Shown: positions 524-10,250 of the stretch, one piece after another | Numbering within the stretch: position 1 is the first letter of the stretch | Layout of the letters: the number at the start of each line of letters is the position of its first letter | DNA from: a bacterium | GTDB taxonomy: Bacteria; Blakebacterota; Blakebacteria; Blakebacterales; Blakebacteraceae | Direction of reading: 5' to 3' | Length of the DNA stretch: 19,356 bases | Assembly: GCA_025774615.1 (NCBI GenBank) | Contig: JALGVQ010000025.1 | Coordinates: 1 to 19,356, forward strand | Translations under genes and position numbers: made by a program | The notes under the pieces: model-generated | Databases searched by the model: none | What the model was told of the DNA's origin: nothing | Seen by the model: only the letters and a program-made list of their open reading frames with translations

Positions 524-1647
524 TCAGATCTTCTGGCCAGGCAGCACCCTCGCTTCAGTGGGGGCCAGCGGCATGATTCTCAACCCTACCATGAAGGCGA
601 ATCCGATCACCCCGAGAACGCCGAGAGTCTGCAGAACTTCCAGGTAGCTGATCGAGTAGCTGGCCACTCCCTCCACGATGACGGTGTCCAGGACCTCATA
701 TCCCGGAAAGAGATCGGGCGGATGGATGAGTCCGGGGATGACGATGAGGAACCGCTCGTGAAGAGCAGGATGGCGGGAATCACGCACCCGATGGTTATCA
801 GCCCAATCCAGAACATGAAGCTGTGGCTTCCGCCGAAGAGGAAGAACCTGCCCGCCTCGTAGGAGTCGGCCAGGTAGAGCCGGTGCACGTTCTCTATCAT
901 TATCAGATAGAGAGTGACCAGCAGGAAGATCGAAAGGAGGCGACGTCCCATCCAGATGATCAGTTCTTCGTCAAGATGACGTTTTGTGGCCCTGAAGAGG
1001 AATACGATCACACAGATCATCAGCGCCGCTCCGGAAGAGAGGGCGGCAGACACGAAGCTGGGAGGCAGGAGGGAGGAGTTGTAGAGTTCCCTGGGGACGA
1101 ACGCGAAGATGGCACCGGTACCGGTATGGGTACCGATGGCCCAGAGCACAACGACCAGTGAGGTGATCTTGGTGAGCGTGCCCTTCTCCTTGAAGAGGGC
1201 CCACAGGTAGAACACGCAGATCATGATATGCCCCGAGTAGAGCCCCGGGTTGATGGAGAACATCGAAGTGGCGTTGAAATAGGTGAACGGTTTGGTGAAG
1301 ACCCGATCGACCCGTCCCTGGTCGGTGAAAATGGAGAGGAGTCCTGCGATAAGAAAGAGCATGGCAAGATAGGCGGCGATCCGGGCGAACGGCTTGTATT
1401 CCATTTTCCCGAAAACGCCGTAGAGACCCGAAACCACCAGTGACCCGGCCGACAACCCGATATAGAAAATGGCCATGGAAATCTGGAGTCCCCACGGCAC
1501 GCGGTTCGTCATACCAGAAAGATGGAGCCCATGGTGGTGCATGACGAGAGTGGCGACGAATCCTCCGATGGAGAAGAGGGCAAGCACCGCTACCGTTACG
1601 TAGTACGGGGTCGACTTTCCTTCGATTTTCGCAAACTGGACATCCAT
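524..1647 (-). pseudogene. dsrP: DsrP/NrfD-family membrane quinone subunit, interrupted by a frameshift or small deletion
   Basis: DsrP is the integral-membrane subunit of DsrMKJOP that exchanges electrons with menaquinol and takes or gives them to the DsrO iron-sulfur protein. The start ATG at 1647 has a GAGGT Shine-Dalgarno 7 nt upstream and follows dsrO by 24 nt. The first ~297 codons show about eight hydrophobic helices, ending in IPAILLFT. After about position 757 this frame turns into a Ser/Pro-rich tail, while the next frame carries the expected NrfD-type ending: RFLIVIPGLIHPPDLFPGYE, a helix near EVLQTLGVLGVIGFAF, and LAPTEARV before the stop at 524. A helix usual between LLFT and RFLIV seems missing, so the lesion looks like a deletion rather than one lost base. 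It may be a true mutation or an assembly error. Family NrfD is clear; the DsrP assignment rests on the dsrJO context. Confidence 0.8.
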
Positions 1648-1671
1648 GGTGACTACCTCGCAGTCACGTTC

Positions 1672-2412
1672 TTACAGGCCCTGATAGTAGACCTTCGGTT
1701 CCGTACCCCAATCCGCTCGTATCCGCTTCAGCAATCCCTCTTTCACCAGCTGTGCTATTTCACTCTCGGGATCGTTCATGTCCCCGAAGATGAGGGCCCG
1801 TTGACCGGCCTGTTCACAGGCCTCGACACACGCCGGTCGACCGCCCTTGTCCAGGAGGTGGGCGCAGAAGTGGCACGACTCGGCGACCCCGTGGGACCGC
1901 CTCGGATATTCTTTGTTCGGCCATTCCGGGTTGTCTTTGTAGTTGAAAAAACGGGCGTTGTAGGGACAGGCGATCATGCAGTACCGGCATCCGATGCACC
2001 GGTGATGATCGATCAGAACGATGCCGTCCTCCCGTTTGTAGGTGGCCTGCACCGGGCAGACCTGGGCACAGGGAGGATTGTCACACTGGTTGCACATCAG
2101 CAGGACCGACTTCTCCTCCAGTCCGGAGGACTCATCCTTCGGGCGGATGGTCGCCCTGCGTATCCAGTGAACATCCCATCGCGGGTCTCCGTGCAGGGCG
2201 ACGTTGTTCTCCTGCCTGCAGGCATCCATGCAGGCGGTACAATCCGACTGACACCTGGTAAGGTCGATGACCATTCCCCATTTTTTCCCGGCCAGCGGGC
2301 TGTCAGCCTGAGCATCCTGGCTCGAGCAGGAAGCGAGGATCGGCAGACTCATCGCGCCGGAGACACCTGCCAGCGCCGGACCGCTCTTCTTCAGAAAGAT
2401 CCTTCTATCCAT
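1672..2412 (-). CDS. dsrO: DsrO-like periplasmic ferredoxin, four [4Fe-4S] clusters, Tat signal
   Basis: Periplasmic iron-sulfur subunit that relays electrons between the triheme cytochrome (DsrJ) and the NrfD-type membrane protein (DsrP). The 246-residue product begins with a twin-arginine signal, DRRIFLKK at residues 2-9, followed by a hydrophobic stretch, so it is exported folded. Sixteen cysteines form four cluster sites: C54/C58/C61/C65, C107/C110/C115/C119, C139/C142/C145/C149, and C180/C183/C195/C199. Length and layout match the DsrO/NrfC/HybA family. Its start lies inside the end of dsrJ (8-nt overlap). Its ribosome site, GGAGGTG, directly abuts a run of eight G in the coding strand (2422-2429), so dsrJ and dsrO are probably translationally coupled. 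Other members of the family (TtrB, PsrB, HmcB) look alike; the neighbouring DsrJ decides the name. Confidence 0.88.
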   Translation of the reverse strand: MDRRIFLKKSGPALAGVSGAMSLPILASCSSQDAQADSPLAGKKWGMVIDLTRCQSDCTACMDACRQENNVALHGDPRWDVHWIRRATIRPKDESSGLEEKSVLLMCNQCDNPPCAQVCPVQATYKREDGIVLIDHHRCIGCRYCMIACPYNARFFNYKDNPEWPNKEYPRRSHGVAESCHFCAHLLDKGGRPACVEACEQAGQRALIFGDMNDPESEIAQLVKEGLLKRIRADWGTEPKVYYQGL

Positions 2413-2830
2413 TTTTCACCTCCCCCCCCGGTATCGCTGTGCGTTCGGAGGCTGACTCCGGATAGTAGTGACAGCCGAAACAGTCGAGTGTCACGCTGGC
2501 TGCCGCGTGGCACCGGTCACAGAATTGGTCCCGGTTCTGATGACAATCACCGCATCCGGCGAGCGTCACCTCATCCCTGATCCCGTACCGGATGACCTTG
2601 TCCCTGATCTCCTTGAGTACATCCATGTGTCGGAACCGCATCTCGGTCGAATCCCGGATGCAGTTTTCCCACTTCGAATCGACAGGTTCCAGAAAGACGT
2701 CAGGCATCTCAGCGTCTCGGGACACATCAAGACCGATGGCGCTGATGCCGATGGGAAGGAGGATGATGGCCGCGAATATGGTGGCCCACCTGCTCCTGTT
2801 CTTCTCGGTCAGGATAGTGCTGCGTTTCAT
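2405..2830 (-). CDS. dsrJ: DsrJ triheme cytochrome c
   Basis: Membrane-anchored periplasmic cytochrome c with three covalently bound haems; in DsrMKJOP it links periplasmic redox chemistry to the membrane complex. The 141-residue product has one N-terminal hydrophobic helix (about residues 15-33), probably an uncleaved anchor. It has three CxxCH motifs: CGDCH at 93-97, CDRCH at 104-108 and CFGCH at 117-121. Upstream lies NCIRDSTEMRFRHMD with C57, matching the conserved DsrJ cysteine shown in Allochromatium DsrJ to be an unusual distal haem ligand. That cysteine, and the AASVTLDCFGCH ending, separate it from generic triheme cytochromes. The first two haem motifs are only six residues apart, a compact version by my recollection of the family. 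It starts 2 nt after qmoC stops. Maturation requires a Ccm-type system, not present here. Confidence 0.9.
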   Translation of the reverse strand: MKRSTILTEKNRSRWATIFAAIILLPIGISAIGLDVSRDAEMPDVFLEPVDSKWENCIRDSTEMRFRHMDVLKEIRDKVIRYGIRDEVTLAGCGDCHQNRDQFCDRCHAAASVTLDCFGCHYYPESASERTAIPGGEVKNG

Positions 2831-2832
2831 CT

Positions 2833-4080
2833 TCAGCTCCCCTCTCCGGCTTTACGGCCAAAGCGTTCGGCCAGGACCATGGCGGTCGTTCGATAGAGCA
2901 GATGGGACAGCTTCGAGTAGGGGAGATAGATCAACAGGGCGAATACGAAGACCAGGTGGATGAAGTAGATAACGTGCCGGTGGGGTACCATCCGCAGGTA
3001 ATGGAGCAGTTCGGCCGCGAACCCGGTCACCACCACCAGGAAGAGGGACCACACCAGCGACCAGTCGAAATATCTGCTGGTGCCGGCCAGGTGTCCGAAA
3101 TAGAGGCGCTCCCAGATCATCAGGAGACAACCGGTGAGTACCGCCAGCCCGCCGATGTTGGCCAGGAGTTTCCACGGACTCCAGAAACTGAAGGGGTATA
3201 CGAAATCGCTGCGGATCAGTGGATTGGAGGGTCCGGTGATGACCCAGAAGCCAACGAGCGAGAGAGCCAGGAACCCGAACAGGACGAAGAAGTGAGAGAT
3301 CGAACGGGAGTGATCGGTCTCGCACGACGTGAACCTGTCATGTACCACGATCTTCAGCAAAACCGATCCGATGCTCGAAAACACACCCTTTACCGGCTGG
3401 GGATCCTCTCCCCACACGCTCGATCCATTCAGACCCCTGGTGAACCTCACCAGTCCGATAACAGCCATAATGATCGCCAGGGATACGAAGAATCCGAAGA
3501 AGCTGTTGATGAGCCAGTGGGGCAGGGAGGGCATGAAGGAGAAGATGATCTCCTCTCCGGCAGGCTGGGTGAATCCCAGCGCATTCCCGATAGGTTCGCG
3601 GAAGCGTATTGCCAGCCCGAGAAGTACGGCCGGGATGGCGAGCAGGACAGGGAGAAAAGCCGGTTTGCTGACCCACCGGGCGAAGAACCGCGGGAAGGCA
3701 TAGTGATGGACGCTCTGCTGCCGCACAGCCGCAAGTACGTCTCCGGGCTGCCCGCTCCGGGGACAGTTGGTCGAGCAGTCATTGCAGTGGTGACAGAGCC
3801 ATACATCTGGATCCGTCATGAGACGGTCCTTCAGTCCCCACGAGGCCCAGGCCATTTCCTTGCGAGGGAAGGGGTTCTGGTCTGGTGAGAGCGGGCAGGA
3901 CGCTGAGCACGTCCCGCACTGGAAACACTTCTTGAGGGATTCGCCGCCGCTGCGGCTCAGAGCCCGGATAAACTCGAGATCGGGGTCGACCACTATCGAT
4001 CGACTGCCAGCTGTCTGTGCGAGTTGGGCCTGCTCTTCTGTCTCGGTGTTGCCGGGCGCCGTGGTCTCACCGGTCGCCAT
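2833..4080 (-). CDS. qmoC: QmoC, HdrC-like iron-sulfur domain fused to a cytochrome b membrane domain
   Basis: Membrane subunit of the quinone-interacting oxidoreductase that connects menaquinol to the cytoplasmic flavoproteins QmoAB and, through them, usually to APS reductase. The 415-residue product has an N-terminal HdrC-type ferredoxin domain with two cluster sites: CFQCGTCSASCP at about residues 52-63, and CHHCNDCSTNCP some 30 residues later. The rest is an HdrE/NarI-like domain of about six helices, with the characteristic DRFTSCETDHSRSISHFF stretch. The ATG at 4080 has GGAG seven bases upstream. It lies 47 nt after qmoB in a spacer carrying two CTGTCTGT copies, and is followed 2 nt later by dsrJ. 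In known operons qmoC is usually the last qmo gene, so the direct continuation into dsrJOP is the odd point. DsrM is a plain cytochrome b without this ferredoxin part, so this is not DsrM. Confidence 0.9.
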   Translation of the reverse strand: MATGETTAPGNTETEEQAQLAQTAGSRSIVVDPDLEFIRALSRSGGESLKKCFQCGTCSASCPLSPDQNPFPRKEMAWASWGLKDRLMTDPDVWLCHHCNDCSTNCPRSGQPGDVLAAVRQQSVHHYAFPRFFARWVSKPAFLPVLLAIPAVLLGLAIRFREPIGNALGFTQPAGEEIIFSFMPSLPHWLINSFFGFFVSLAIIMAVIGLVRFTRGLNGSSVWGEDPQPVKGVFSSIGSVLLKIVVHDRFTSCETDHSRSISHFFVLFGFLALSLVGFWVITGPSNPLIRSDFVYPFSFWSPWKLLANIGGLAVLTGCLLMIWERLYFGHLAGTSRYFDWSLVWSLFLVVVTGFAAELLHYLRMVPHRHVIYFIHLVFVFALLIYLPYSKLSHLLYRTTAMVLAERFGRKAGEGS

Positions 4081-4127
4081 GTTGCAACTCCTCTGGATGT
4101 CTATCCAGCTGTCTGTCTTGCTGTCTG

Positions 4128-6410
4128 TTACATCCCCTTGAACGGGTTGTAACCGATCTCTTCGATCAGTTCGCCGAACTTCTCGAATATCTCCGGGAGC
4201 CTCCCATATTCATCGATCGATAATTCGTGAAGCTCCACCCGTTCCAGATCCATCGCCATCTGTTCCAGCTTCTCCCTGGCGTTCTTCTGACGTACGGAGG
4301 CCAGCTCACTCCCTGTGATGAAGTGGCACTGGTAGTCATCACCGTATTTGCAGCCGAGCAGGATGACCCCGTCGTAGCCGGCCGACATCGCGTCGGTGAT
4401 CCATACGTTGTTCATCGATCCCAGGCACCGGAGCGGAACGACCCGTATCCATGGACTGCCCTTCATCCGTTTCTTACCCATCAGGTCGAGAGCCGGGAAG
4501 GCATCGTTCTCGCATGCCAGGACCAGGATCCTCGGTTTCTCGTCCCACTCTTCAGGTACGTTCACCGCCTTGATCATGGAGCCGATCATATGGATCGAGT
4601 AATCCTTGAACGAGATGATCCGTTCGGGGCAGGCGCCCAGGCATATGCCGCACCGGCGACACCGCGTTTCCTGCAGAAGGGGGGTTCCCTCCTTGTCTTC
4701 GTTCAGCATACCGAACGGACACTCCTCGGTGCAGCGCTTGCACTTGGTACAGCGCGACATCTGAAACTCGGGATATGAGGTGTCTCCTGCCCTGGGATGT
4801 ACCGCCTCTCCCCGGGAGGTCATCTCGATGCACTGGATCGCTTTCAACGCCGCCCCGGTGGCGTCATCTATGCTGCCGAGACCGTCGGTGGGCTCCCGTA
4901 CGGCGCCGGTGGGATAGATTCCTGTCCGGCGGCTTTCGTAGGGGAAACAGATGAAGTGGGAATCGGGGAATCCATACTCAAGCGCCGGAAGATCGGGGCC
5001 CTGCCGGTAATCGAGGTTCAGGATCTCGGTTCCCTCGTGGTGCTCGAGTTGCTTCACCGTTTCGGCCGCCTCTTCCTTCTTCTGTTCCGAATCTCCCTCG
5101 ACCATGGTGACCCGGGCATCCCCAAGAGCCCGGATGGATTCCCCGTCGGCGGCGTTGGGCACCATCCCTGCCGCGAGGACCACCAGGTCCACATGCACCT
5201 CGATCTGTTCCCCGAGCATGGTGTCGCGGGCGGTGATCGTGAATTCGCCGCTCCCGTTGCGGCTGACATCGGCGATCTCGCCCCTGGTCAGGAAGATCCC
5301 CGGATCATCCTGCGCCTTCCGGTAGAACTCCTCATACAGGCCGGGAGTCCGCATGAACTCATAGAATATGAACGCCTTCGCGTCCTCATCACCTTCACGC
5401 AGGTACATTGCCTGTTTGAGTGAGGTCATGCAGCAGATGGAGGAACAGTAAGACGGCGGTTTATTTCCGGTACAGCCACCACACTGCAGGAAAGCGATGC
5501 TCTTGACTTCCTTCCCGTCGGATGGGCGGGTGATCTTCCCCTGTTCTTTGACCATCGCTTCCAGATCTACGTTCAGGATGACATCGTCCAGTCCACCCCA
5601 GGAGAGGTCACCCCGGGGATCGTTCGGCATCCACCCTGTAGCCTGGATAATGGAACCCACCCTGAACTGGTCGATGGTCTCACCTTCCGGTTTTCCGTTC
5701 CCGAAGGAGGTGAGGGTCACATCGAAGAGGCCAGGAGCGCCGACGATCTCACTGGTGCCGGCTGAGGTGTAGACAGTGATCCCGGCATGTCCCTCCACTT
5801 CTTTTATAAGGTCCTCGACGCCGGTCTCCTCCAGGTCCCGGTAGGGAGGCCTGGTAGGGAAGGAGCGATGCTGCTTTGCCAGCCACCCACCGAGCTGGTC
5901 GGACTTCTCCACCAGCCGCACCTCATATCCCGCCTCGGCCGCCTCGTGGGCGGCAGTCAGACCAGCGATCCCGCCACCCACCACCAGGATACTCCGGTCA
6001 AGTTCCCCTTCCGGCTGGAATGGTACCGGGTGTTGCATCTCCTGCACTTTGGTGATGTACATTCGAAGGTAGTCTTCGGCTGCCATCTGGGTGTCTTCAT
6101 CATCCGGCGGGAGGCACCAGACCACCTGCTCCCGGAGTCCGACCTTTTCCACGATCACATCATCGGGGAAAGCATCATCGGTGTACTGCCGGGGCGAGAT
6201 ACCGGCAACAACGACCTTTGTCAGTCCCTCGTTACTGATATCATCATTGATTGCTGCAAGGCCGGGCCCCTCACAGGAGTCCACTGTTCTGCAGAATGGA
6301 ACACTGAATTCATCTGTGGCCACCGCGCAGAGAGCGTCGATATCCAGTGCCTCTGCCAGTCCATAGCCTGTACAGATGAATACGCCGATTTTTCCTTCTG
6401 ATTCAGTCAT
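4128..6410 (-). CDS. qmoB: QmoB, HdrA-like flavoprotein with C-terminal ferredoxin and MvhD domains
   Basis: Cytoplasmic FAD and iron-sulfur subunit of Qmo. The 760 residues hold, in order: an HdrA-type N-terminal domain (1-130); a Rossmann FAD site at 139-162 (VVGGGIAGLTAAHEA); the HdrA cysteine insert with C310, C313, C322, C326 and C327; two ferredoxin sites, C554/C557/C560/C564 and C584/C587/C590/C594; and an MvhD-like domain (about 626-720) with C633, C662, C687 and C695. This fusion and length are typical of QmoB. The N-terminal domain is odd: the family's CTGCG is CTGYG here (Y16) and the usual CSPR is ISPR (I71), so the N-terminal cluster seen in HdrA relatives is probably lost. Its start overlaps the qmoA stop by 4 nt (ATGA). 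The MvhD domain does not imply a hydrogenase; it is standard in QmoB. Confidence 0.92.
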   Translation of the reverse strand: MTESEGKIGVFICTGYGLAEALDIDALCAVATDEFSVPFCRTVDSCEGPGLAAINDDISNEGLTKVVVAGISPRQYTDDAFPDDVIVEKVGLREQVVWCLPPDDEDTQMAAEDYLRMYITKVQEMQHPVPFQPEGELDRSILVVGGGIAGLTAAHEAAEAGYEVRLVEKSDQLGGWLAKQHRSFPTRPPYRDLEETGVEDLIKEVEGHAGITVYTSAGTSEIVGAPGLFDVTLTSFGNGKPEGETIDQFRVGSIIQATGWMPNDPRGDLSWGGLDDVILNVDLEAMVKEQGKITRPSDGKEVKSIAFLQCGGCTGNKPPSYCSSICCMTSLKQAMYLREGDEDAKAFIFYEFMRTPGLYEEFYRKAQDDPGIFLTRGEIADVSRNGSGEFTITARDTMLGEQIEVHVDLVVLAAGMVPNAADGESIRALGDARVTMVEGDSEQKKEEAAETVKQLEHHEGTEILNLDYRQGPDLPALEYGFPDSHFICFPYESRRTGIYPTGAVREPTDGLGSIDDATGAALKAIQCIEMTSRGEAVHPRAGDTSYPEFQMSRCTKCKRCTEECPFGMLNEDKEGTPLLQETRCRRCGICLGACPERIISFKDYSIHMIGSMIKAVNVPEEWDEKPRILVLACENDAFPALDLMGKKRMKGSPWIRVVPLRCLGSMNNVWITDAMSAGYDGVILLGCKYGDDYQCHFITGSELASVRQKNAREKLEQMAMDLERVELHELSIDEYGRLPEIFEKFGELIEEIGYNPFKGM

Positions 6411-7660
6411 CTGTTGAGGTCCTGGATCGCTTTGAGGGCTACAGCCGTGGCTTCTTTCGTAGTGGTTGAAACGTCACAGGGATGCCGGGCGCACCCGGCG
6501 GAGTACACTCCTTCGACACCCGTACCCCCATCGAGAAAGCCGAACTCGTCATACTCCAGGTCGAGGGGGATCGGGACGTCGGCGGTGTTGGGGACGATAC
6601 CGGTTGCCAGTACCACCATATCGAACTGCGCCGCCGGTTTCTCGCCGGCAATGGTGTCTTCGACATCCAGGATCAGGTTGTTCCCGGCATCCTCACTGAT
6701 ACCGGCGACCTTTCCCTTGACGAAGGTGATATTCTCATCCTCGAGCAGGTCGTGGTAGAAGCTCTCGAGCCGACCGATGGTGCGGACATCGATGTAGAAG
6801 ATCGTGATCTTCGCTTCTTCATCCTGTTCCCTGATGTATCTGGCCTGTTTCAGGGAGGCCATACAGCAGACACCGGAACAGTAGGGGAGGTGGTTCTCAT
6901 CCCTCGAACCCGCACACTGGACAAAAGCGATATTCCTGGGTGCTTCACTGTCGGAAGGCCGGAGGATCATGCCCCCGGTCGGTCCGCCTGGAGCGGCGAG
7001 GCGTTCCATCATGAGATTGGTTATGATATTCGGGCACTGACCGAAGGCCAGGTTCTCGAGGTTTGCCGCGTCGAAAGGGCGCCAGCCGGTAGCGATGATG
7101 ATGGCTCCGACATCGATGGCGAACTCCTCCGCACTCATGCCCATATCGATCGCTCCTGGAGGAGCAGTCTCAGTCAGCGTAAGCATGTCAGCATCAGAGA
7201 GGGCTTCCCGATCAACAACATGAAGGGGGGGCCAGGCAGTATCGTGTGGATAGTAGAGGGCTTTGGTGGTCCCGACGTTCATGTTGAATTCGTCGGGCCG
7301 CTCCGAACCGAGCTGCTCGGTGATGGTATCGTCCAGGGAATGGTTCCCTGTGACATAGCGTGGAATCTTACTGATCCTCGCTCGGAAATCACCCACTGTT
7401 CCGGTGATCTCTTCCACGGTGGCCAGCGTATGCACGGTGATCCGGGGATTGTTTCGAATGCGGCGAGTATTGATTTCGAAGCCGCAGGAAGGAGGACACA
7501 TCTTGGGGAAGTACTTGTATGAGCGTATTACGCGACCCCCGAGAAAAGCTTCCTTCTCGACGAGGACCACAGAATAGCCAACCTCTGCGGCCTCCACGGC
7601 CGCAGTCATCCCCGCAATACCTCCACCGACAACCAGGATCGGTTTTGCGTCAGGATTCAT
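6407..7660 (-). CDS. qmoA: QmoA, HdrA-like FAD and [4Fe-4S] flavoprotein
   Basis: Cytoplasmic flavoprotein of the Qmo complex, partner of QmoB. The 417-residue product begins almost directly with the FAD-binding motif ILVVGGGIAGMTAAVEA (residues 8-24), followed by KMCPPSCGFEINTRRIR, a pattern I associate with QmoA. The HdrA-type cluster insert reads QCAGSRDENHLPYCSGVCCM. A second nucleotide-binding motif, VVLATGIVPNT, lies near residue 350. It lacks the N-terminal HdrA domain and the extra ferredoxins of QmoB, as expected. The ATG at 7660 has GGGAG six bases upstream. It is the first gene of the operon; its promoter lies in the region shared with the histidine kinase gene, where a Crp/Fnr-type palindrome sits 57 bp from this start. 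No aprAB or sat gene is adjacent, so the usual electron partner cannot be confirmed here. Confidence 0.92.
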   Translation of the reverse strand: MNPDAKPILVVGGGIAGMTAAVEAAEVGYSVVLVEKEAFLGGRVIRSYKYFPKMCPPSCGFEINTRRIRNNPRITVHTLATVEEITGTVGDFRARISKIPRYVTGNHSLDDTITEQLGSERPDEFNMNVGTTKALYYPHDTAWPPLHVVDREALSDADMLTLTETAPPGAIDMGMSAEEFAIDVGAIIIATGWRPFDAANLENLAFGQCPNIITNLMMERLAAPGGPTGGMILRPSDSEAPRNIAFVQCAGSRDENHLPYCSGVCCMASLKQARYIREQDEEAKITIFYIDVRTIGRLESFYHDLLEDENITFVKGKVAGISEDAGNNLILDVEDTIAGEKPAAQFDMVVLATGIVPNTADVPIPLDLEYDEFGFLDGGTGVEGVYSAGCARHPCDVSTTTKEATAVALKAIQDLNR

Positions 7661-7839: not shown

Positions 7840-9801
7840 ATGATCGATCACGGAACAGAAGAAGCGAGTTTCAGACCAGGTCTCCGCAGCGTGCTGAGGA
7901 GGATGCGCCTTGTCTGGAAGGTGAACGGTCTCATTCTCGTAATTCTCGCCTTTATGCTGGGAATCCTGGGATATCTCGGCACACGGGCTCTGGAGCGGGC
8001 TGAGATCGATATGGCCCGTGATGTTTCCATGGTGAGTTCCGAGAGGATCATCACCAGGCTGGAAGAGGTCATGATGGGCCATGAAGCTGCCGAGCTTCCA
8101 GCCCTGGTGAACAGGATGGCGTTGGAGAACCCGGCCTATCGGAATATTCGGCTGATCGCCCACGAAGGTCGCGTGGTAGCCACCCAGATCCCATCGGATA
8201 CGCTCACCGTTGCTGAGGATCTGTGGCCCTGTATCGTCTGTCATCTTGCTCCCGGGCAGACACCTGAGGTCGCTTCCGAAACCTGCTGTGAAGTCCTCGA
8301 GTTCGAGAACCGGGAACGGGTACTCTCGGTGGTCACCCCGATCATCATTGAGGATGGGTGCAGTACCGAAACATGCCATCCGGGACTGTCGGCCGGTTCA
8401 GTCCTTGGGATACTGCAGGCGGATTTCTCCCTGGCGAGGGTCGACAACCTCATAACTCAGCAGAATCGGCATACCGCGCTCGCGATCCTCATCTCTCTGG
8501 TCGTTGGTATGGCCATCACCTGGATGATGACCGAACGTCTCCTGGGAAGACGTATCAGGATGCTCCGTGAGGGAGCGATGCGTCTTGCCGAAAAGGACTT
8601 CAGTTTCCGTTTCGGTGATACCACGGGAGACGGGCTCGCTGAAGTATTCGGAGTGTTCGACGACATGACTTCGGAACTCTCCGACACTCTTGCCGAACTC
8701 ATGGGTACCAAGGAATACCTGCAGGGTATCGTGGAGAATTCCGCTGACCTGATCATCACTGTTGGCCCGGACGGATTGATCAAATCATTCAACGCAGGCG
8801 CAGAGCAGGTGCTTGGCTACAGGCGGGAGGAAGTCATCGGGAAGAGTATCGAGATGATTTTCGCCGACCCGCGTGACAGGACAAGAGCCATCGAGCAGAT
8901 GCGAAATGGTGACCATGTGGTGAACTACATGACCCGGTTCGTGACAAAGGATGGTGAAACAAGACGTGTAATGAACACCCTCTCCCGGCTCCGGGCGGCG
9001 GACGGCACACCCATCGGAACGATGGGGATCAGCAAAGACATAACCGAAGAACTACGTCTCCAGGTCCAGTTGTTGAGATCGAAACGTCTTGCGGCTCTGG
9101 GCCAGGCCCTGACCGGGATCCAGCATTCGATCAAGAACATGCTGAACGTCATGAAGGGCGGGTCGTACATGGTCAAGCTCGGACTGGCCAAGGAGAACCT
9201 GCCGCTGGTTACTGAAGGATGGGAGATGGTCAGGACGGGTATCGATGACATGACCGAGATGTCGATGAGCATGCTCGATTTTGCCAAGACCCGAAAACTG
9301 AAACTGAGACAGACTGATCTGACGGAACTGATATTCAAAGTCCACGAACTGAGCCGGGTCAGACTTCAGGATCTTGGTATCGGGATGGATCTGGATGTCG
9401 CTCCTGATATTCCCCGGGTGATATGCGATACCGAAGGTATCCAGTCAGTCATCATGGATCTCCTATCGAATGCAATGGATGCCTGTTTGTGGAAAGAGTA
9501 CCCTGAGGGTGAACGCCCTCAGTTGATCCTGAGAGCCGTTGTGGCCGACCAGGATGGACGTATCGAGATACAGGTGATCGATAACGGAGAGGGGATGCCG
9601 GAAGAGGTTCAGGAACGGATATTCGTACCATTCTTCAGTACAAAGGAAAAGAAGGGTACGGGAATGGGGCTGGCGGTGGTGGCCCGTATTGTCGAGTCTC
9701 ATGAAGGAGAGACGTTCGTTGAGTCTGTGCCCGGGGAAGGAACGACGTTCAGAGTGTCGCTCCCGATCAATGGGCCAGGTCTAAAAGAGGAGCAGCATTG
9801 A
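7840..9801 (+). CDS. Membrane sensor histidine kinase with haem-c motifs in its periplasmic domain, HAMP and PAS
   Basis: Two-component sensor of 653 residues. Helix 1 is at about 30-48 and helix 2 at about 211-230; between them is a periplasmic domain of roughly 160 residues. That domain has a CIVCH haem-c motif (C131, C134, H135) and a second site CSTETCH (C174, C179, H180), a CX4CH spacing. A HAMP region follows (230-285), then a PAS domain (about 292-405), an H-box with H429 in IQHSIKNMLN, and a HATPase domain with N-box DLLSNAMDAC, G1 DNGEGMP and G2 GTGMGLAVV. It probably senses periplasmic redox potential or a haem ligand such as NO or sulfide; which one is unknown. Its neighbours are the divergent qmoABC-dsrJOP operon and the receiver gene whose ATG overlaps its stop by one base. 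Confidence 0.88.
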   Translation: MIDHGTEEASFRPGLRSVLRRMRLVWKVNGLILVILAFMLGILGYLGTRALERAEIDMARDVSMVSSERIITRLEEVMMGHEAAELPALVNRMALENPAYRNIRLIAHEGRVVATQIPSDTLTVAEDLWPCIVCHLAPGQTPEVASETCCEVLEFENRERVLSVVTPIIIEDGCSTETCHPGLSAGSVLGILQADFSLARVDNLITQQNRHTALAILISLVVGMAITWMMTERLLGRRIRMLREGAMRLAEKDFSFRFGDTTGDGLAEVFGVFDDMTSELSDTLAELMGTKEYLQGIVENSADLIITVGPDGLIKSFNAGAEQVLGYRREEVIGKSIEMIFADPRDRTRAIEQMRNGDHVVNYMTRFVTKDGETRRVMNTLSRLRAADGTPIGTMGISKDITEELRLQVQLLRSKRLAALGQALTGIQHSIKNMLNVMKGGSYMVKLGLAKENLPLVTEGWEMVRTGIDDMTEMSMSMLDFAKTRKLKLRQTDLTELIFKVHELSRVRLQDLGIGMDLDVAPDIPRVICDTEGIQSVIMDLLSNAMDACLWKEYPEGERPQLILRAVVADQDGRIEIQVIDNGEGMPEEVQERIFVPFFSTKEKKGTGMGLAVVARIVESHEGETFVESVPGEGTTFRVSLPINGPGLKEEQH

Positions 9802-10250
9802 TGCCGAAGAGAGTCCTGGTGGTAGACGACGACGAGAACACGAGACGCTTCCTCACGGTTGCCCTGGAGGAGAACGGGTACGAAACCGTGACTGCCGAGG
9901 ATGGAGATGACGGTCTGAAGAAGGTCCAGGAGTCGCCTCCCGACCTGATCCTGCTGGATGTGATGATGCCGAAGAAGACCGGATTCACCCTCTTCAAGCA
10001 ACTGCGCAAGACTGAAGAATACAAAGATATCCCGGTGATTATGCTGACCGGCGTTGCGGGAGCACTCGAAGAGGATGAAGAGCGTGCCGAAGGCGACACC
10101 ATGGAGAGTCCCTTCGACAGCCTTCGTGATACCCTGAGTAAGGCTATCACGAAGATGAGGGAAGAGGGCCTGGTGAAACCTGAAGTCTTTATCGACAAGC
10201 CGATCGACCCGGAAGACCTCATAGAGGCGGTACGGGGTCTCATCGGTTAA
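9801..10250 (+). CDS. Single-domain response regulator (receiver only)
   Basis: Phosphoacceptor partner of the upstream kinase. The ATG at 9801 overlaps the kinase stop by one base and has GAGGAG 8 nt upstream; a TTG three bases earlier is a weaker choice. The 149-residue product has the acidic pocket D9-D11, phosphoacceptor D53 in LLDVMMP, switch T83 in MLTGV and K133 in IDKP. No DNA-binding or enzymatic output domain follows. The stretch between T83 and K133 is about 50 residues, roughly twice the usual length, and is rich in Glu and charged residues; this insert covers the beta4-alpha4-beta5 face used for partner recognition. The signal must therefore reach another protein, by phosphorelay or by direct binding. 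An intrinsic terminator follows. Confidence 0.9.
   Translation: MPKRVLVVDDDENTRRFLTVALEENGYETVTAEDGDDGLKKVQESPPDLILLDVMMPKKTGFTLFKQLRKTEEYKDIPVIMLTGVAGALEEDEERAEGDTMESPFDSLRDTLSKAITKMREEGLVKPEVFIDKPIDPEDLIEAVRGLIG

Follow-up and report, generated by a model that had tools for sequence, protein, structure and literature searches.

We report an operon, qmoA-qmoB-qmoC-dsrJ-dsrO-dsrP, in which a Qmo module and a DsrJOP module are united without dsrM or dsrK; this hybrid, first proposed in the initial annotation, is real and widely conserved. QmoABC is a membrane complex serving APS reductase, and DsrJOP is the half of a different sulfur complex that faces outwards. We put the probability that the two form one membrane complex, QmoABC-DsrJOP, on the APS-reductase side of sulfate or sulfite metabolism at roughly 60%, and we infer its physical assembly, its partnership with AprAB, and proton translocation from what the sequences show directly: the gene order and its conservation, the residue signature, the ancestry of JOP, and the co-occurring genes.

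Energy conservation by QmoABC and the second electron donor of AprAB are an open question: menaquinol-driven reduction of AprAB should be endergonic, and the confurcation proposal leaves its second donor unidentified (PMC10553843). A conserved operon in which Qmo gains another quinone site, along with a periplasmic cytochrome bearing three hemes, suggests one particular partner that can be tested. If true, a single complex would be a concrete answer to what pays for menaquinol-driven APS reduction, a presumably endergonic step, or to what drains sulfite oxidation. The operon further marks JOP as a plug-in module common to the Apr and Dsr branches.

The operon in the window and in a same-genus genome

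The window, i.e., the whole stretch of DNA analysed (19,356 nucleotides), is one entire contig (C270) of a metagenome-assembled genome (MAG) of 3.3 Mb in 324 contigs, 82% complete, and carries the following features:

qmoA, 6407..7660, minus strand: HdrA-like flavoprotein; the L023 ortholog is 86% identical
qmoB, 4128..6410, minus strand: HdrA-like flavoprotein with 4Fe-4S and FlpD (MvhD) domains
qmoC, 2833..4080, minus strand: HdrC-like 4Fe-4S domain and six-helix cytochrome b; signature H360, R363, P366, R368, W303
dsrJ, 2405..2830, minus strand: triheme cytochrome c with three CxxCH motifs
dsrO, 1672..2412, minus strand: periplasmic ferredoxin-like subunit
dsrP, 524..1647, minus strand: NrfD-like quinone subunit, frameshifted via a 70-bp loss near 764
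PAS sensor histidine kinase, 7840..9801, plus strand: in divergent orientation; CxxCH and CX4CH in its periplasmic domain
receiver-only response regulator, DVU0259-like, 9798..10250, plus strand: 96.5 bits to NF045717, below its cut-off; the L275 ortholog is 69% identical

The six genes stand in a row on one strand with the spacings originally described, namely a 4-nt overlap of qmoA and qmoB, a 47-nt gap between qmoB and qmoC, a 2-nt gap between qmoC and dsrJ, an 8-nt overlap of dsrJ and dsrO, and a 24-nt gap before dsrP, which starts at 1647. The contig continues for 523 bp past dsrP; dsrM and dsrK are absent from the operon, and aprBA and sat were not found in the window. Both QmoA and QmoB are HdrA-like, with the FlpD/MvhD domain in QmoB. 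QmoC (NF038018, 383.7 versus 300 bits) and DsrO (NF045797, 286.6 versus 200 bits) score above their NCBIfam equivalog cut-offs. DsrJ (NF038038, 66.7 versus 100 bits) and DsrP (NF045798, 78.7 versus 350 bits; 77.3 for an intact relative) score below theirs, an early sign of divergence; against PF03916 (NrfD), DsrP scores 138 bits.

The reading of dsrP as a gene reaching position 524 needs a correction: it is not a single open frame but is split between two, one covering 607-1647 and the other 524-787, and 524 is the end of a frameshifted tail. It is split in this way because 70 bp are missing relative to the intact 397-aa ortholog in the same-genus genome G001 (L055:3452-4645). The loss sits at a short direct repeat, CTCTTC, and could reflect either a collapse during assembly or a genuine deletion; it takes out about one membrane helix and shifts the frame. 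In G001, qmoA-qmoB-qmoC-dsrJ and the start of dsrO lie on one contig, and the end of dsrO and dsrP on another; the two are unjoined at dsrO, a gap that the window bridges, and the full-length proteins of the window and G001 are 80-88% identical. A gene for a 664-aa multi-helix protein follows dsrP on the same strand in G001, so no dsrM or dsrK follows there.

The frameshift, along with a second qmoABC and a canonical JOP in the same genome, would suit a non-functional or decaying duplicate of little meaning in the window's organism. We consider this improbable, as the operon is intact in G001, is conserved across phyla, and keeps its catalytic and ligand residues, and the 70-bp loss at a direct repeat may itself be an assembly collapse.

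Distribution across phyla and ancestry of the modules

A scan for QmoC in one genome per species (84,980 species) yielded 80 loci, with a break among them. In the loci L067-L079, QmoC is 48-72% identical to that of the window and is always followed by dsrJ, with dsrO and dsrP after it wherever the contig continues; the order qmoC-dsrJ-dsrO(-dsrP) also occurs in L280 and L292, contig ends permitting, and further hybrid operons were found in G130 and G224. Spacing between qmoC and dsrJ varies from -74 to +63 nt among hybrids. The search for qmoC directly followed by dsrJ, a check put forward in the initial annotation, thus finds this order in at least seven phyla (Acidobacteriota, Gemmatimonadota, Zixiibacteriota, Electryoneota, Latescibacterota, Planctomycetota, and LCP-89), whereas none of dsrJ, dsrO, or dsrP lies within 2.5 kb downstream of qmoC in any of the 49 canonical loci for which 1.5 kb or more of downstream sequence is available; such recurrence is therefore not chance. 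Hybrid-type DsrP was detected in 7 of 386 diverse genomes, the window's genome and G001 among them. No dsrM or dsrK stands next to JOP in the other operons read from the main hybrid clade, and in L079/L281 dsrM-dsrK lie farther downstream, past sat.

Fragmentation of the MAG into 324 contigs could raise the suspicion that assembly or binning artificially joined qmoABC to dsrJOP, which we regard as barely credible given the same join in many independent assemblies, including three sequences labelled chromosomes (CP070631, CP070824, and CP070717). Two findings that would have counted against the original proposal, absence of the gene order from relatives and an assembly join between qmoC and dsrJ, are hence excluded, the former by G001 and the other phyla, and the latter by this recurrence.

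The module does come apart. L081 keeps dsrJ with a His360-type QmoC and has no dsrO or dsrP, and L082:7001-10588, from an Acidobacteria MAG that also holds a full hybrid operon (L280), reads qmoC-dsrO-dsrP without dsrJ and encodes a QmoC with the canonical Arg360; JOP is therefore not indivisible.

The DsrP tree falls into two deep halves (split 100/100), one with canonical DsrP, both from these genomes and from known sulfate reducers, and the other with an Archaeoglobales DsrP, the JOPs of non-canonical dsr loci (G164, G065, G221, and G351), and a hybrid clade of 14 rows (100/100), which is nested among dsr-linked JOPs of other lineages. Hybrid DsrP is only ~25% identical to the host's canonical DsrP, and the deep split rules out a recent duplication of the host's own JOP. 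Judging from this nesting, the hybrid JOP probably derives, by recruitment, from a dsr-linked JOP of the second kind rather than being a copy of the host's. Such a JOP is not unique to Qmo: G164, G065, and G221 have it in dsr operons, and G351 has it close to dsrA; in G221, J-O-P is followed by dsrA, dsrB, the gene of a DsrL-like NAD(P)-binding protein, and then dsrC, dsrM, and dsrK. Two DsrP branches have been described, with DsrP2 in sulfur oxidisers and Archaeoglobus (PMC8076601), and our second half is probably the DsrP2 branch, judging from the Archaeoglobales DsrP and the JOPs of non-canonical dsr operons that it includes. Separately, L225 and L238 (G126 and G128) encode, beside canonical DsrO, a very divergent DsrP-like protein that shares 24-26% identity with canonical DsrP and clusters among other NrfD proteins.

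The subunit phylogeny that the initial annotation had called for thus sets JOP apart from the host's copy and also unites the hybrid QmoCs (support 97 over the full set of rows, 79 once three long branches are dropped, and 100 for an inner 14 rows), but it does not gather the hybrid QmoBs in one clade. QmoC and JOP therefore behave as a stable unit, with QmoAB exchanged.

Most operons of the main hybrid clade are linked to a PAS sensor kinase, which tends to come with a receiver-only regulator and is placed upstream, downstream, or inverted relative to the operon; no sensor kinase was seen beside L079 or L280. The periplasmic CxxCH and CX4CH-like motifs of the kinase occur in the window, G001, L067, L068, L069, L072, L073, and L078, and the periplasmic domain is missing in L070, L071, L075, and L076. 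From these motifs, the kinase is probably a two-heme (heme-c) redox sensor. In G000, contig C58 encodes an HmcF/TmcB-like protein with a C-terminal DVU0259-type receiver fusion (L003:9322-11301), and its gene adjoins that of a histidine kinase; DVU0259 itself lies near tmc.

Other sulfur genes, QmoC residues, and the proposed complex

Separate dsr and apr genes were sought in the same genomes. Both the window's genome and G001 carry a second qmoABC, with aprA beside it in G001, and a canonical dsrK-dsrJ-dsrO-dsrP-dsrA, with dsrM seen in G001; aprA was not found in the window's own genome (82% complete). All 15 genomes reached via hybrid and near-hybrid loci have dsrAB, 14 of the 15 have a DsrK above the cut-off, and most have two DsrO above the cut-off, one canonical and one hybrid. 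AprA is present in 15 of 17 genomes checked (G121 with a C-terminal fragment only). Most hybrid-bearing genomes have a second QmoC; the hybrid one is the sole QmoC found in G121 (chromosome CP070631), G126, and G128.

It had been proposed that QmoABC here takes the place of DsrMK, in which case the hybrid would pass electrons to DsrC. JOP does normally partner DsrMK, and QmoB, QmoC, and DsrK have Hdr ancestry in common, but canonical dsrK and dsrM accompany JOP in the same genomes, QmoABC has no DsrK-type subunit, and the operon is linked to sat and aprBA rather than to dsrC or dsrAB, making this replacement very unlikely; we reject it. The sat gene directly follows dsrP in L079 (qmoABC-dsrJOP-sat), and aprBA adjoins the hybrid operon in L068/L069, sits between the hybrid and canonical qmoABC in L275, and directly precedes qmoABC-dsrJ in L081. 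Such direct adjacency is confined to a few hybrid loci, and no dsrAB linkage was seen for the hybrid operon. The hybrid is therefore an extra complex and no substitute for DsrMK. The initial annotation had counted a complete dsrMKJOP elsewhere, with the JOP here of different ancestry, against its proposal; these genomes hold just that, and with it the replacement idea falls, while the hybrid complex survives because the gene order tracks the QmoC type from phylum to phylum.

Several further sulfur-related loci were observed. A dsrM-like/dsrK-like pair without JOP lies beside siroheme synthesis genes on G000 contig C58 (L003:12897-13820 and L004:1-1404), its dsrK-like gene apparently split by a frameshift. 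A third Qmo-like set, perhaps type II Qmo or Hdr-like, occurs in both the window's genome and G001 (L022, G000 C323; L025, G001 C175) and comprises a QmoA-like protein, a 603-aa HdrA-like protein, a 104-aa ORF, and a QmoC-like protein (28-34% identity). A conserved ORF of 83-98 aa recurs near dsrB (L284:13883-14134, L283:15709-15960, L274:10305-10601, and L293:4676-4927) and is possibly a divergent DsrD; looked for as a marker of the direction of sulfur metabolism, DsrD itself gave no match in Pfam, where this ORF matched no family.

Residue by residue, 17 hybrid QmoC rows were compared with 81 canonical ones. Position 360 is His in 17/17 hybrid and 0/81 canonical rows (Arg in 81/81), or 18 His versus 82 Arg with the G224 row added, and Ile in two remote QmoC-like rows. 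R368 is likewise found in 17/17 versus 0/81 rows, R363 and P366 each in 17/17 versus 1/81, and W303 in 17/17 versus 2/81; Tyr295 and Asn286-Pro287 are also distinct to hybrids. Twelve of the 13 hybrid-distinct positions fall within 279-303 and 354-368, a clustering equalled in 0 of 100,000 random draws, which ignore shared descent; residues common to one QmoC clade can also be mere inheritance. The eight cluster Cys and H247/H263/H375/H393 are conserved in hybrid and canonical QmoC. Hydropathy and an AlphaFold model (mean pLDDT 82.3), which matches HdrC and, more weakly, NarI, give six membrane helices. The HdrC domain of the QmoC family is cytoplasmic, which, given six helices, would place both stretches in the periplasm; the hybrid-distinct residues are thus predicted to lie on one side of the membrane, in two periplasmic loops. 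Hybrid DsrJ keeps the three CxxCH motifs and the conserved Cys and His in alignment with canonical DsrJ. Hybrid DsrP keeps the NrfD quinone and proton residues (D109, S128, H174, T177, R186, E252, and R322), the gate position being Arg (R322) in hybrids and Lys in canonical DsrP; roles for these residues in quinone binding and proton passage have been proposed (PMC8076601). A PDB sequence search returned no Qmo or DsrMKJOP structure, the only relatives of the membrane subunits being HdrA/HdrC, NarI, and ActC-type.

In the proposed complex, QmoA and QmoB would face the cytoplasm and trade electrons with AprAB, as suggested by their family and by the sat and aprBA linkage in relatives, and QmoC would take electrons across the membrane via its 4Fe-4S clusters and b hemes. 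DsrJOP would dock on the periplasmic face of QmoC at the reshaped loops 286-303 and 360-368, where DsrP would exchange menaquinone and may translocate protons, DsrO would relay electrons, and triheme DsrJ would pass them to or from periplasmic c-type cytochromes. The sensor kinase, with its probable heme-c domain, may tune expression to the periplasmic redox state. By this route AprAB would be driven by, or drained into, quinone and periplasmic carriers together, and we lean slightly towards electrons flowing inwards to APS. The fullest version, in which a single transmembrane complex connects APS reductase directly with periplasmic cytochromes and, at two sites, with menaquinone, after a dsr-linked JOP module was recruited to QmoC and spread across phyla, is offered tentatively.

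In the main rival reading, one operon would yield two complexes, an ordinary QmoABC and a separate DsrJOP acting as a cytochrome:quinone oxidoreductase, with the menaquinone pool as their sole coupling. DsrJOP has its own quinone subunit, the modules are separable (L081 and L082), and a quinone cycle between the two halves has been proposed even for DsrMKJOP (PMC8076601). Yet the clade-wide changes in QmoC are confined to predicted periplasmic loops, a pattern that a docking or redox contact would explain but a link through the pool would not, and QmoC remains paired with JOP even where QmoAB has been swapped; two complexes therefore seem to us somewhat unlikely, and we favor the joined QmoABC-DsrJOP complex.

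In practice, the QmoC signature H-x-x-R-x-x-P-x-R (360-368) allows this variant to be spotted in genomes, and caution is needed when reading MAGs, as dsrJOP in a hybrid operon is not evidence for a second Dsr complex.

Comparison with known systems

The initial annotation knew of no described complex of this makeup, and we likewise found no description of a joined qmoABC-dsrJOP operon in the open literature, a scope that leaves aside subscription papers, preprints, and supplements. None appears in passages of PMC10504309, PMC10439189, PMC10591310, PMC8528874, and PMC13047784, though one may yet be given in the synteny supplement of PMC10504309, nor in those of PMC11406059, PMC10564751, PMC9326234, and PMC5812927. 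The parts are known; what we did not find described there is their union in a single operon that spans several phyla and has a QmoC signature of its own.

The hybrid resembles QmoABC (type I, with AprAB as partner) in its three subunits, Fe-S motifs, conserved QmoC His, and, in several relatives, linkage to aprBA/sat, but it differs from canonical QmoABC in the dsrJOP that follows, in His360 for Arg and two reshaped periplasmic loops of QmoC, and in usually sharing the cell with a second Qmo. With DsrMKJOP it has in common the triheme motifs of DsrJ, DsrO, an NrfD-type DsrP, and the order J-O-P; in contrast, it lacks DsrM and DsrK, and its DsrJ and DsrP fall below the NCBIfam cut-offs. Its DsrP probably belongs to the same deep branch as DsrP2 (PMC8076601), but with Qmo rather than DsrMK as the partner. 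As in Tmc/Hmc and Qrc of sulfate reducers, periplasmic cytochromes would be coupled to quinone and/or cytoplasmic partners, and a DVU0259-like regulator accompanies the hybrid; unlike in those systems, the cytoplasmic module is QmoAB, with no TmcB or HmcF, and the cytochrome is of the DsrJ type. Finally, the QmoAB-HdrBC and QmoAB-HdrD variants described in PMC10504309 are likewise recombined Qmo modules, but they dispense with QmoC, whereas the hybrid keeps and extends it.
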